Assembly: GCF_000517545.1 (NCBI RefSeq)
Contig: NZ_BAIV01000003.1
Span: forward strand, 186,001 to 250,000
DNA length: 64,000 nucleotides
Source: Bacteroides reticulotermitis JCM 10512
GTDB taxonomy: Bacteria; Bacteroidota; Bacteroidia; Bacteroidales; Bacteroidaceae
Direction: 5' to 3'
The notes beneath the pieces are model-generated. The model was given only the letters and a program-made list of their open reading frames with translations, was not told where the DNA came from and did no database searches. Shown in pieces: positions 22,179 to 55,019 of the stretch. Both the position numbers and the translations under genes were made by a program. The stretch's first letter is position 1. Every line of letters begins with the position of its first letter.

Positions 22179-22305
22179 CAATTGCTGCTTGCTTTCGTCC
22201 AAATGCCCGGGGGAAGGCGAGCAAATGCCCCGGGCTTTCATGCAAATGCCCGGGGCATTCGAACGGAATACCTGCTTATTGCTCCAAATGCTTGCGCTTT
22301 GTTTG
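22179..22305. repeat. Array A: GC-rich palindromic cores at a 21-22 bp period
   Basis: Units begin at about 22179, 22200, 22222, 22243, 22264 and 22285. The best units read CAAATGCCC(C/G)GGG followed by a variable half; 22179 and 22264 are degenerate. The cores CCCGGG, CCCCGGG and CCCGGGG are self-complementary. The short frame crossing this array (22165-22365) is not a gene. Confidence 0.75.
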
Positions 22306-32831: not shown

Positions 32832-34406
32832 TTACCGGATGTCGGTAATAGGAGATGTTGGGCAAGCGTTGGGTGCCCGTATGCGCATGAAGTGAGCCAG
32901 AGTAGGCGCAATATGGTCAATTGTGATAGGAGTCTGTATGATAGCCGGCTTCACCGAGTGTCCGATGAAGATTAGCGGGGAGGGAATATAGGCACTGCGT
33001 ACCACTTTATTTTCCTGTCCGTTTTCGTTTACAATGGTCCATCCGGGGAGTACGTCGATAATGAGGTCACCAGAGCGTTTGCGGTGGTAACTGTTGCGTA
33101 TTTTATAAATTTCCGGAGTCCAAGCTCCCAATAGAAGGCGGTTTGCTGAGTAAACTTCGTTTACTCCACTAAATTGTATGAGGAATTCGGCGGCTTTCTC
33201 TTGTACATCAATGAGATTGAGCTGCTTCTTCTCCAATAGTTTATGATTCAGATAAATTTGTTGGTCGAAATGAGCTTCTACGTAGGTACCTTCACCATAG
33301 GTTGCCATCAGGAACATGTTGAGCAGGGCAGCGCAACGGTTCAGATGGAATTCTCCGGTAGGGATTTTGTAGAGTCCCGAATCAGCGGATTCACTGTCCG
33401 TGTATCCGGTAGATGTGATGAAGAATAAAACGTTTTGTAAGCCGACCTTTTTGTCAATTAGTTCCAGTAGGCTGGCAATGCTTCGGTCTAAGCGAACGTA
33501 TGTATCCTGAATCTCCATCGCACATTCTTGTGGTGATTTGTGTGCGTAGTTTCCGGCGTAAAATGTCAGCGAGAGTAGGTCGGTGATGTCGTCCATCCCT
33601 AAGGTTCCTTTGCTTAGCAGCTCTTCGGTGAGTGCATTGACTTCATCGTTGACAAAGGGGCTGGTGATGAATCTTCTGAATTTATTCTTCCGATCATCAT
33701 CAAATTTGTATTTAAACACGATATCCCGCCAATCTGGCAGGAAAGTGTACATGCCACGTGGGTAAACCGGTTCCCAAGTGATTCCGCTTATTCGAAAATC
33801 GATGGCTTGACGGTCGTTGTACTGATTTGCCCACCATGGGAATTCTCCATAATAGGTACTGCCACTCCATTTACCGGTGTTAGGGTTGAGCCAGAAAGCG
33901 CCATTGGCGGCATGTCCGGCGGCAAAAATGGCAGCGTCGCAGAAAGGGGCGATGGCATAAACCTCTGCCTTGCCTTGAGTTGCTATTTTCAATTCGTCGG
34001 CAATAGTCGATGTGAGTAGCTTGGACGGTGAACTAGCGTAGTCGGTGTAGTACCCCATAAATGCCGAGTCGTCTGTGCTATTCACTGGACGCAGGGTGGA
34101 AGCATCCATCCATTGATTGGCTATAATGCCATTCATGGAAGGTGATGTACCGCTATAGATGGCAGCGATTGCCGAAGAGCGGTCTATGTTACTAAATGTG
34201 TATTGAGCGTTGCGAAATACTCTACCCTCTTTCCAAAGACGCTTGAATCCTTTCTCGCCATAAAGGGAAGAAAAGGCCTCAAGGTAGTCCGTACGCAGCT
34301 GATCGATCGTCAAACCGACTACCAATTTGGGGGCAGTGGGCAACGACTGGGCTTGCAACCCGGTGAAGGTGAGTACGGTGATGAGGGAAGTGAGTAGTCC
34401 TTTCAT
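32832..34406 (-). CDS. Alkaline-phosphatase-superfamily protein, probably catalytically dead
   Basis: An exported 524-residue protein with a signal peptide (1-20) and clear similarity to PafA-type phosphatases: PKLVVGLTIDQLRTDYL at the start, EIQDTYVRLDRSIASLLELIDKKVG in the middle, and a SPLIFIGHSVKP to IDHIAPTLAHFM end. However, of the metal ligands and nucleophile only Asp35 seems kept. The nucleophilic Thr aligns with Arg76, the TDYVGH motif is GNYAHK (Asp to Asn), TADHG is TSTGY (331-335), and the late HG motif is missing. Its ATG overlaps the DUF4105 stop by one base, so the two are translationally coupled. A structural or sensing role is inference. Confidence 0.85.
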   Translation of the reverse strand: MKGLLTSLITVLTFTGLQAQSLPTAPKLVVGLTIDQLRTDYLEAFSSLYGEKGFKRLWKEGRVFRNAQYTFSNIDRSSAIAAIYSGTSPSMNGIIANQWMDASTLRPVNSTDDSAFMGYYTDYASSPSKLLTSTIADELKIATQGKAEVYAIAPFCDAAIFAAGHAANGAFWLNPNTGKWSGSTYYGEFPWWANQYNDRQAIDFRISGITWEPVYPRGMYTFLPDWRDIVFKYKFDDDRKNKFRRFITSPFVNDEVNALTEELLSKGTLGMDDITDLLSLTFYAGNYAHKSPQECAMEIQDTYVRLDRSIASLLELIDKKVGLQNVLFFITSTGYTDSESADSGLYKIPTGEFHLNRCAALLNMFLMATYGEGTYVEAHFDQQIYLNHKLLEKKQLNLIDVQEKAAEFLIQFSGVNEVYSANRLLLGAWTPEIYKIRNSYHRKRSGDLIIDVLPGWTIVNENGQENKVVRSAYIPSPLIFIGHSVKPAIIQTPITIDHIAPTLAHFMRIRAPNACPTSPITDIR

Positions 34407-35589
34407 TATTTCTTTTTATAGGTCAAAATCAAATTGCTCGCTGAACGTATCAGCAAACTGAGTGCCAAAGGTACGACAGCAAAGTCAAATCTCTGTGGTA
34501 TGAGCGGAAAAAGCACTATAAATAATGTTAAAACGGCTAAATTCAAGACCAGATACCAACATTTCTTGCCTTTTCGAATGCAATAAACAATGTAAGGTAG
34601 TAGAAAAAGATGTCCGGGATGGAAGACAAAAAGAAGATAATTGGAACTGACAGCCGGGTGTTGGGAAAATATGGCCAGAAAGGCAAGAACACAGCCGGCC
34701 ACCCCTGCGATTCCGAATAAAAAGAGATCAATACCCCAGAGTCCTTTCTTGCGACGTATGCCGTAGATAGTTCCTGCGGCAGTTAGTATAAACAGCAAAA
34801 GTGCACATTGCAGAGGGGTTGGCATCCAGGCGGTATCTTTTTCAGGTGTAACGTCGACAATCTTTTCTACGGAAGATACCAGCGGGCGCTCTGTCTGCTG
34901 ACCGCTAATCTGTGCCTGAGCGAAAAAGTCCATCAGGTAGAATGGAGCGAACATCATTTGGCGACGGGTAATGGGGGCATCAGCATCACTACCTACGCAT
35001 AGATCAATCCCAAATCGGGCCCAAGGATGCCCTTGGCAATATTGATGAACAATGTCACGGAACGAACGGGCGTTGTCGGGTGGAGTAGTCGGGTAAACTA
35101 CTTGCCCTTCTATGCTCTCTTCTATTTTATCCCGGGGACGGGTAGCACAGTTATCGTAGAAAAAGTTATAGCGGTAAACACGGTTTTGCGGACGGTAATT
35201 TTCCTCCAACAAACGTATCAGCTCTGTCTTTTCTTCATTGGTCAGGTTTAGTACTTGCTGCCATACGCTGCGCCCGTCATACTCATATTCTTTGGCAAAG
35301 TATTCGTAATCGGTAGCTCCCAATTGATAGTCTGTTTCTCCGAGCGCAAAGCGCAAGACGAAGTTAGGAGCGCTGAAACTGAATATTCCGTAGTTGAAAA
35401 CGGCATCGATACCTCGGGAGGGATTTTCATAGCGAATAGCTGTGTGCCCAAAAAGTGAGTAGATTTCTTCACCTGGTGCGCAAGTCAGCAGACTGAGGCG
35501 GATGGAATCGTTCTCAGTAGCGGTTGTCTGAACTGCCGGCCATAAAAAAGGAAGATAGATATATAGGTATAAAGTAAATTCCGTTTCAT
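34406..35589 (-). CDS. DUF4105-family membrane protein (1-base deletion near 35544)
   Basis: A protein of about 394 residues after correction. A signal peptide (MKRNLLYTYISIFLF) is joined to LWPAVQTTATENDS by adding one T to a run of six near 35544. The DUF4105 core follows: GEEIYSLFGHTAIRYEN, NYGIFSFSAPNFVLRFALGE and YRYNFFYDNCATRPRD, with His and Cys residues that could be catalytic. The last 150 residues contain four or five membrane spans. It is coupled to the phosphatase-like gene downstream. Function is unknown; a cysteine-peptidase-like fold has been suggested for related families, but I cannot confirm it. Confidence 0.87.
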
Positions 35590-35698
35590 CCGCTTAAGTG
35601 TTTCTTAATTTTGGCGACGAAGATACAACTATTTGTTGAAAAGTAGAAAGATGCACTCGGAGTATCTTACAAATTAACCCTTTTGTTTTAAATAAGTA
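35590..35698. other. Upstream spacer of the DUF4105 gene
   Basis: The minus strand has TATCTTCG (35618-35625), a near match to the -7 box, 28 nt before the DUF4105 start. Nothing else is evident before the array. Confidence 0.35.
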
Positions 35699-35788
35699 TT
35701 CGTTCCACCGAGGTGTTTGTTTCGTTCTACCCGGGTGTCCGCTTCGTTCGACCAAGGTGTTTGTTTCGTTCGACCTAGGTCGAACGAA
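35699..35788. repeat. Array B: four 22-bp units with ACCnnGGT cores
   Basis: Units start at 35699, 35721, 35743 and 35765, exactly 22 bp apart, each TTCGTTC then one base then ACCnnGGT. The core middles differ in every unit: GA, CG, AA and TA. Units 1 and 3 continue GTTTGT. Unit 4 ends in a perfect 24-bp palindrome whose left half is TTCGTTCGACCT. It lies between the 5' ends of the divergent DUF4105 and coaX genes. Confidence 0.85.
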
Positions 35789-36098
35789 TTAATTCTACTA
35801 AAGAAAGACTTTCGATTGGCTGTTGTGACAGACTAATTTGGACCGTTTTACGAAGAATGAGATCTATGCATATATGGTTCAAAATGATTCTCGATTTATC
35901 TGTAATTACCTTTATATATAGGCTTCTTGTTGCTGATTGTTTGGTGCATTTTAACTGAATATTGTTTGCGCATTTAATCTTATAGATAATGTTTATATCC
36001 GGTAGCGGCTCACCTCGGTCAATTGCGAACTTACTTGAAATATTGGCGGCTTGGTTTGAAGCTTGAAAAAAGTTTTCCCGGATATTTTCGCTTCTATA
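35789..36098. other. Gene-free stretch before the coaX promoter
   Basis: AT-rich sequence without a convincing gene or strong hairpin. An open frame from 36023 is only an upstream extension of coaX, since the promoter lies within it. Confidence 0.5.
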
Positions 36099-36128
36099 TT
36101 GCTGTTTCTTTTTTTTGCTTTACCTTTG
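36099..36128 (+). promoter_or_regulatory. Promoter of coaX
   Basis: TTG at 36099-36101 and TACCTTTG at 36121-36128 are spaced by 19 nt. This sets the transcription start downstream of the longer frame and supports translation from TTG 36155. Confidence 0.7.
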
Positions 36129-36154
36129 CGCGTCCAAAAGAAAACGTAGTAAGG

Positions 36155-36886
36155 TTGAATCTGGTTATTGACATAGGAAATACAGCGGCAAAAATCGCCT
36201 TGTTTGAAGGCAGTGTCATGGTCGAAGTGGTTTATGCCTCGAATCGCTCCTTGGAGTGTTTGGAGAGTCTTTGCTCTAAATATCAGGTTGAGCAGGCAAT
36301 TGTAGCTACGGTAATCGATTTGGACGGAGAATTGCTGAGTCGTTTCGGTGCACTCCGTTTGCCGATACTTTGGCTCAATTCTCAAACGCCGTTGCCGATT
36401 GTTAACTTATACGAAACACCGGAAACATTGGGCTATGATCGGATAGCAGCCGTAGTAGGTGCTCACGAGCAATTTCCGGATAAGAATGTACTGGTAATTG
36501 ATGCGGGGACCTGTATAACTTATGAGTTTATCGATTCTAACGGACAGTATCATGGCGGTAATATTTCTCCCGGACTGCAGATGCGCTTCAAAGCTCTTCA
36601 TCAGTTCACCGGACGCCTTCCGTTACTTGAGTCAGATGGACGGAAACTCCCTCTGGGACGTGATACGGAGACGGCAATACGTGCCGGAGTACACAAAGGA
36701 ATAGAATATGAAATCGCCGGATATATAACGGAGATGAAACATAAATATTCTGAACTTTTGGTTTTTTTAACGGGCGGAGATGAATTTTCTTTTGATACCA
36801 GCGTAAAAAGTATCATCTTTGCAGACAGATTTTTAGTGTTGAAAGGATTAAATAGAATTTTAAACTATAATAATGGTAGGATTTAA
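36155..36886 (+). CDS. coaX: Type III pantothenate kinase
   Basis: CoaX phosphorylates pantothenate, the first step of coenzyme A synthesis. The protein is about 243 residues starting from TTG 36155 ([19 protein letters not shown]), the canonical ASKHA-fold opening. Further motifs are [49 protein letters not shown] and [10 protein letters not shown] longer reading from 36023 would add 44 residues, including a hydrophobic stretch, but it begins upstream of the promoter. Its stop overlaps the next start by 14 nt, so the genes are coupled. Confidence 0.94.
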
Positions 36887-54772: not shown

Positions 54773-55019
54773 AGTTTGCTTGCTCGTCGCTAAACCTATT
54801 CAGTCTTTTCATGATAAATTCTTTTCTTTCTTCGCGTGACATGCCATGCATTCTTTCATGCAGGTGTCTGTGTCTGCCTCTGTGACCGAAATGCCGACCG
54901 AAATGTCCGCCGAAGTGTCCTGTCAGTAAGCGGAATAGTACAGCCAGGCCTAACGCTTGCCAATAGTTGATACAGCTCCAGCCTGTGATAGCCGGAATCA
55001 GTAAATTCCACAGTCCCAT
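54762..55019 (-). CDS. Small His/Gly-rich membrane protein coupled to an ECF sigma gene
   Basis: An 85-residue protein. A hydrophobic first half (LWNLLIPAITGWSCINYWQALGLAVLFRLL) is followed by HFGGHFGRHFGHRGRHRHLHERMHG, with eight or more histidines, and a charged helix (SREERKEFIMKRLNRFSDEQANYEE). The histidine cluster could bind a metal, and the last helix resembles CpxP/Spy-type segments. It ends 11 nt inside the sigma gene. A role as metal-sensing anti-sigma is speculative. The protein family is not one I can name. Confidence 0.75.
   Translation of the reverse strand: MGLWNLLIPAITGWSCINYWQALGLAVLFRLLTGHFGGHFGRHFGHRGRHRHLHERMHGMSREERKEFIMKRLNRFSDEQANYEE

Follow-up and report, generated by a model that had tools for sequence, protein, structure and literature searches.

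Several described systems resemble, in one respect or another, the repeat array reported here. REPIN-RAYT systems combine scattered palindromic repeats, arranged as a hairpin doublet, with a Y1 (IS200/IS605-type) transposase gene. In the TubR-tubC and AspA systems, iteron or centromere arrays are bound by winged-helix proteins, and IHF and HU act at single sites or with little sequence preference. Members of the HU-HIG family (PF18291) carry an HU domain fused to a wHTH, Ig, or glycine-rich motif, and a 2017 paper on HU clades by Burroughs and colleagues reportedly predicted that the family acts against mobile elements. To our knowledge, no DNA target has been described for the HU-HIG family; our literature search returned no such target and nothing on arrays of the present kind, which is weak evidence because most subscription papers lay outside its scope. 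Within the Bacteroidales, the BrickBuilt report (PMC4596501) describes a miniature inverted-repeat transposable element (MITE) of Porphyromonas gingivalis that is made of intergenic 23-nt tandem repeats (1 to 22.8 repeats, often within leader and tail segments) and is present in 19 copies in ATCC 33277. Its ends (GAGACC) resemble the termini of the IS5 family, and a PF00216 DNA-binding gene lies next to one copy, BrickBuilt_14.

The array described here (array B) lies in a window (i.e., the whole stretch of 64,000 nucleotides that was analyzed) on contig C95 of the Bacteroides reticulotermitis genome (G000), between lnb and coaX. Its features and the genes discussed with it are as follows, with coordinates in the window unless another contig is named.

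35698..35789, no strand: whole array B element (~92 bp), a discrete unit that also occurs at nine further loci in this genome; similarity among copies ends at ATTCGTTC / GAACGAAT, except in the C74/C92 pair
35698..35706, + strand: left terminal half-arm ATTCGTTCC, in inverted orientation with respect to the right end
35707..35714, no strand: core 1, ACCGAGGT, center GA
35729..35736, no strand: core 2, ACCCGGGT, center CG
35751..35758, no strand: core 3, ACCAAGGT, center AA
35773..35780, no strand: core 4, ACCTAGGT, center TA
35765..35788, no strand: perfect 24-bp palindrome TTCGTTCGACCTAGGTCGAACGAA, comprising the last unit together with the right end; a self-match in the DNA search
35781..35789, - strand: right terminal half-arm CGAACGAAT
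34406..35589, - strand: lnb, lipoprotein N-acyltransferase Lnb (NF051878, 692.3 bits), left neighbor, outside the element
36023..36886, + strand: coaX, type III pantothenate kinase, right neighbor, outside the element; the best family match begins at residue 45 of the ORF
G000:C69:41124-41744, outside the window: HU-HIG/winged-helix gene with a 206-aa product and its own four-unit array 35 bp 5' of it

Judging from sequence comparisons, we consider that array B is probably a scattered copy of an operator array, namely, the one through which a sequence-specific HU-HIG/winged-helix protein, the product of the C69 gene, would regulate itself.

Array B consists of four ACCnnGGT cores with a period of exactly 22 bp, each directly preceded by TTCGTTC plus one base, and is flanked by the inverted ends ATTCGTTC and GAACGAAT. 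An earlier note made from the window sequence had described these units and the perfect palindrome at the last of them correctly, but had drawn the element slightly too narrow, since it extends by one base on either side. Tandem Repeats Finder gave array B the top score among its five rows for the window (score, 101; period, 22; 3.7 copies; 78% matches). It also reported short tandem repeats at 22221-22260 and 54884-54920, which are perhaps the arrays A and C of the earlier note. The units differ from BrickBuilt in being 22 bp long, in having no leader or tail, and in ending in ATTCGTTC, whereas the available sections of the BrickBuilt report mention neither ACCnnGGT dyads nor a link to HU (PMC4596501); both are intergenic tandem repeats of Bacteroidales.

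Single cores are without clear enrichment in the window (13 ACCnnGGT octamers versus 8.35 expected, with at least 13 in 7 of 100 shuffles). The earlier note had proposed counting cores at 22-bp spacing across the genome, and that count went well beyond chance: there were 26 forward ACCnnGGT pairs at exactly 22 bp, compared with 0 for a reversed-pattern control, so it is the spacing, and not the frequency of single cores, that exceeds expectation. When gaps of 4 to 34 were scanned over the whole genome, 26 of the 33 pairs had a gap of 14, 5 had a gap of 15 (a 23-bp period), and 2 lay elsewhere; the reversed control gave 3 pairs. A second geometry is present in the same genome at G000:C93:154364-154440, where a ACCCGGGT array has four cores and a 23-bp period. 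A second ACCnnGGT family with different arms was also observed (G000:C89:61459, L046, and C93:205785, L044); from its sequence, it probably belongs to the HU-HIG gene at C94:119976, the match of L044 being weak.

The genome contains ten ~91-bp elements of the array B type, on contigs C60, C66, C69, C73, C74, C80, C89, C92, C95 (the window), and C96. All 10 retain the four core positions, with an exact ACCnnGGT at 37 of the 40. A DNA search with array B, in which 9 of 42 candidates in the genome were scored, listed the other copies apart from C66 (eight of nine) and no new one. In comparisons that included 1.5 kb on each side, the copies were alike over the ~91-bp element alone, give or take a few bases, with the exception of the C74/C92 pair. 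Unlike the other copies, these two (L039 and L042, respectively) have 235 bp in common, including flanks, and represent a separate duplication. The TTTCGTTC arm is kept in the spacers, although its direction can flip as a block. These observations give good support to the spread of the arrays as a discrete element. They also make an ordinary minisatellite generated by replication slippage barely credible: slippage would suit tandem 22-bp units and the varying core numbers at other loci (3 to 9, and only two in one relative in genome G001), but the units differ inside the array, copies at separate loci match from end to end, the four core positions are constant in the genome, and four is also the mode over the 118 loci considered below (56 of the 118 listed, all counted).

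Discrete ends and inverted termini (8 to 9 bp; longer in genome G012) are likewise what a MITE- or REPIN-like miniature element, moved in trans by a transposase, would have, any association with a particular gene family then being mere insertion. Two further observations fit such an element. The array is missing from the lnb-coaX gap of genomes G001, G009, and G012, these gaps being too diverged to give an exact insertion point; G001 and G012 have relatives of array B at other loci. In addition, the copies in G012 share roughly 250 to 450 bp, and one family carries two arrays. However, no target duplication was seen by eye around the ten copies (there being no same-species empty site for comparison), no transposase was recognized by eye among the ORF clusters found at three or more array loci, and insertion leaves unexplained the arrays of the same geometry and other letters that precede most winged-helix paralogues, and rarely short HU-HIG genes, as described below. 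We therefore regard a transposase-driven element as rather unlikely. Separately, a regular distance of ~260 to 275 bp to large genes was observed in G012, and in one family a second array fills this space.

The earlier note had argued that selection acts on the half-sites and leaves the two central bases free. Its first part holds: in 8 copies, departures from the column majority occurred in 1 of 192 cells of ACC/GGT, 16 of 192 of the TTTCGTTC arm, 49 of 144 of the rest of the spacer, and 26 of 64 of the center, with the half-site count being partly circular and favoring intact cores, since the copies were found through core patterns. Copy C89, which has a one-base gap in core 3, and copy C92, a near copy of C74, were left out of this count. 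The second part does not hold, because 31 of 36 centers in the genome are YR steps (CG, 17; TA, 6; CA, 4; TG, 4). C89 was also left out of this analysis of centers and spacer direction. Over the 118 listed loci, centers agreed in 68% of the pairs within an array and in 12% of the pairs between arrays, from which we conclude that the center is set per genome or family. A recombinase crossover site with a 2-bp center was considered and rejected, no recombinase having been recognized among the recurring ORFs.

Arrays with three ACCnnGGT cores at 22-bp spacing were found in 14 of 60 genomes of the genus, including the present one (reversed control, one genome), and in at least 118 stretches of a collection of named genomes. 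Ninety-five of the 118 listed stretches are from Bacteroidota, mostly from Tannerellaceae (31), Bacteroidaceae (24), and Prevotellaceae (23), with four from Flavobacteriaceae; the matches in high-GC Actinomycetota and Myxococcota probably arose by chance. Judged by eye, the spacers of one genome resemble each other, and those of most species are unrelated, with the core and the period remaining constant, and some relatives share spacers (TTCGTTC arms also occur in G001, G012, G030, and G058). Pairs of a second core class, ACTATAGT, counted with one mismatch allowed, numbered 17 in G000, 53 in G012, 16 in G058, 15 in G047, and 3 or fewer in seven others, compared with 0 or 1 in the controls. 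Viral contigs with the three-core pattern numbered 19 for ACC and 2 for ACTATAGT, and most of them look by eye like simple or chance repeats; a phage or viral source of the arrays was rejected as unsupported, with no HU-HIG match in the viral stretches examined.

An all-against-all comparison of 962 ORFs near the arrays, in which clusters present in at least three loci were considered, revealed the HU-HIG family (PF18291) as a cluster lying directly beside arrays, in 13 loci. A TonB-receptor-like cluster also recurred in 13 loci, but its distances to the arrays were scattered, and a cluster from four loci at distance 0 is an ORF overlapping the array itself. At the 118 listed loci, 13 HU-HIG genes lay within 250 bp of an array (at 34 to 108 bp), and none lay elsewhere in the 881,732 bases; 12 of the 13 adjoining proteins were in the alignment behind the HMM. 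The array was on the 5' side of the gene in 11 of these 13 cases and on the 3' side in 2. Among the matches listed, 4 of the 14 genomes with strict ACC arrays have an HU-HIG gene that adjoins an ACC array (G000, G030, G011, and G056); in G030, such genes lie 3' of both strict arrays, and one gene copy encodes only 143 aa. An ACCnnGGT-type array was also observed 34 bp from an HU-HIG gene, on its 3' side, in an Anaerolineales metagenome-assembled genome (Chloroflexota; L138, also L078), for which lateral transfer and mis-binning are possible explanations.

The arrays thus resemble REPIN-RAYT systems in being species-specific, scattered, intergenic palindromic repeats with one resident gene that carries the same repeat. 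They differ in that the gene is of the HU/winged-helix type and the repeat consists of four direct dyads, instead of a Y1 transposase and a hairpin doublet. No match to a Y1 (IS200/IS605-type) transposase was found among 30 proteins scanned, and HU-HIG is the family that recurs directly beside the arrays.

The C69 protein matched PF18291 over residues 1 to 125 and the full length of the family (126.8 bits; cutoff, 26.2). Its structure model (mean pLDDT, 88.2; pTM, 0.56) combines an HU fold (about residues 1 to 125) with a predicted C-terminal winged helix (139 to 198), the latter composed of helices at 139-152, 158-165, and 169-181 and strands at 185-188 and 195-198. No Pfam HTH family matched this protein at an E value of 0.1; some relatives match HTH families below the cutoff. 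A fold search with the model returned BVU_2165 (4fmr) and chains of HU/IHF, together with weak matches (E values of 0.004 to 0.012) to the winged helices of TubR and AspA. As in the TubR-tubC and AspA systems, repeated sites would thus be read by a winged-helix dimer, though the fold matches are weak and the fold is a common one; here, the arrays are chromosomal and occur in many copies, and the protein has an additional HU domain. With IHF and HU, the protein shares the HU fold of a DNA-bending family, and the difference lies in the tandem, paralogue-specific arrays. The distinction from PF18291 as described is that the winged-helix members found here accompany 22-bp dyad arrays. The earlier note had suggested a dimeric protein contacting ACC and GGT, and its idea gains support, since a symmetric reader of these half-sites fits the arrays and a candidate protein has been found.

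The genome contains 22 PF18291 matches, and 13 other genomes searched contain 3 to 41. We used these matches for a test in the reverse direction, in which the upstream regions of HU-HIG genes were chosen regardless of arrays and 19 periods were compared; loci fetched through arrays, genes with less than 150 bp upstream, and identical proteins were left out. Of the 32 long genes (at least 190 aa), 29 had 22 bp as their best upstream period, and 2 more had 23 bp. For short HU-HIG genes, 22 bp was best in 3 of 16, and for shuffles, it was best in 8 of 160 (Fisher P value for long versus short, 1.3e-6). Because the genomes in this test all had ACC arrays, it was repeated on 15 genomes of the genus without a three-core ACC match (29 of 30 loci used, with L328 left out), in which 22 bp was best for 18 of 22 long genes (at least 185 aa) and 3 of 9 short ones. 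The exceptions among long genes, for which 22 bp was not the best period, amounted to 3 of 32 and 4 of 22 in the two tests. In L037 (6515-7051), L213, L224, L234, and L237, the winged-helix gene was observed to be followed by another HU-HIG gene, a short one that lacks an array and is possibly an operon partner.

The letters of the cores differ by paralogue (ACCnnGGT, ACTATAGT, ACAnnTGT, ACGTACGT, GCCCGGGT, CCCGCGGG, and others), as do the arms; an AC....GT frame is frequent among the cores but not universal. Along the protein tree, core class changed 10 times, compared with a minimum of 13 in 300 label shuffles (33 labeled proteins), which would be expected either from inheritance or from recognition. 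The labels cover 33 of 43 proteins, those with a score of at least 0.75 (L187, which has that score, was not labeled).

Most of the scattered arrays compared can be assigned to individual genes. We aligned 15 scattered arrays from G000 and 15 from G012 with the upstream regions of 7 of the 22 and 5 of the 41 HU-HIG genes, respectively. For 28 of these 30 arrays, the best upstream region led the next by at least 16 points; array B scored 100 with the C69 upstream region and 29 with the next gene. The weak leads were those of C93b (36 versus 30; shuffled maximum, 33) and of the G012 array at C35:165429 (66, 64, and 59), and leads were smallest for G012 arrays sharing the ACTATAGT core (e.g., 116 versus 100). 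Given this matching, several gene-array families seemingly exist side by side in one genome.

The arrays of the HU-HIG genes also have a characteristic position. Of the 54 long HU-HIG genes with a clear array, 32 have a TAnnTTTG, which we take to be the Bacteroides -7 element, that ends 8 to 44 bp 5' of the array, compared with 89 of 2,700 shuffled flanks (3%); for the other 22, none was seen close to the array in the 230 bp scanned. A box within 230 bp was present in 43 of 64 long HU-HIG genes, at a median of 173 bp from the start codon, and in 26 of 32 short ones, at a median of 64 bp. The array therefore seems, as far as sequence can tell, to sit between the promoter and the start codon of its own HU-HIG gene, as an autoregulatory operator would. 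The C69 gene, too, has its four-unit array downstream of a promoter-like box and ahead of its start codon, so that autorepression is the most likely main role of this parent array.

If this promoter assignment is right, the arrays also lie within the transcribed leaders of the HU-HIG genes, where they might act as RNA, i.e., as a structured leader or attenuator. Array RNAs do fold better than shuffles (C69 array, -51.4 kcal/mol, z of -7.8; array B, z of -3.0 and -4.0; C74 copy, z of -2.9), but tandem palindromes fold anyway. In 7 of 9 arrays, all three spacers point in the same direction, so that the arms of the units do not pair with each other. Moreover, scattered copies occur in every orientation to genes, and an Rfam search of the window gave no match. 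An RNA function is therefore very improbable, and an RNA hairpin as the conserved feature was set aside as the main reading.

The placement of the scattered copies bears on whether array B is instead a conventional operator of lnb and coaX, with the scattered arrays forming a regulon. As the earlier note had it, array B lies between divergent genes, lnb (minus strand) and coaX (plus strand), and it is ~110 bp from the sole ATG upstream of the lnb body, which would suit such an operator. This placement is not shared by the scattered arrays in general, however: when the gaps at 29 sites, one of them the C69 gene, were classified by simple ORF calling, 17 were tandem, 7 divergent, and 5 convergent. 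The proteins flanking scattered arrays, 20 of 58 of which were scanned, have unrelated functions and show no visible regulon logic, and a common regulon was rejected on this ground. Within 130 bp of array B, only one TAnnTTTG reads toward the array; it is 84 bp to the left, farther away than at HU-HIG genes. We thus find the conventional-operator reading quite unlikely as a general account, and at single loci it would be compatible with the HU/winged-helix explanation. As to lnb itself, its conserved body (35300-35589) was observed in a frame without a usable start codon, the ATG at 35589 being in another, soon-stopping frame; this frame break may reflect an assembly error, a pseudogene, or phase variation.

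Under the HU-HIG/winged-helix explanation, each 22-bp unit would be a dyad that takes one protein dimer, with specificity coming from the ACC/GGT half-sites and the TTCGTTC arms. Since 22 bp corresponds to about two helical turns, the four dimers would be on one face of the DNA and the bends introduced by their HU domains would be cumulative. The C69 protein is predicted to bind the array at its own promoter and thereby repress itself, and most other HU-HIG/winged-helix paralogues would use the same array geometry with different core and arm letters. Copies of the array would then have spread as a discrete ~91-bp element. The scattered copies are probably still bound, given that their half-sites are kept, and may serve as additional docking sites, either titrating the protein or folding and regulating the chromosome locally.

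A broader reading, which we put forward tentatively and doubt more than we believe, is that many address systems, private with respect to one another, operate in parallel in the genomes of Bacteroidales. Every HU/winged-helix paralogue would wrap its four-dyad array into a bent ring, control itself, and spread copies, with the specificity turning over between species and the 22-bp geometry staying fixed. If true, this would define a new class of sequence-addressed, self-propagating bacterial chromatin element. The link to a protein would account for the scattered 22-bp palindromic arrays in Bacteroides genomes, and it would give the large, little-understood PF18291 family a concrete DNA target that can be predicted gene by gene, so that its function becomes testable. 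If bound, the scattered copies would be candidate chromosome-folding or titration sites.

This branch of the HU fold is probably sequence specific, and natural changes in cores and arms could teach its recognition code. Three close HU-HIG relatives (L037, L224, and L234) were observed to have a common TTCGTTC arm, with an ACCnnGGT core in two and an ACAnnTGT core in the third. The third protein is set apart by 11 alignment columns, two of which lie, by eye, just before the region of the recognition helix. In G012, four double-array scattered elements (L279, L280, L283, and L291), which have longer inverted ends, carry the same arms around ACTATAGT cores and then ACAnnTGT cores; this combination of the same arms with different cores suggests that arms and core are perhaps read separately.
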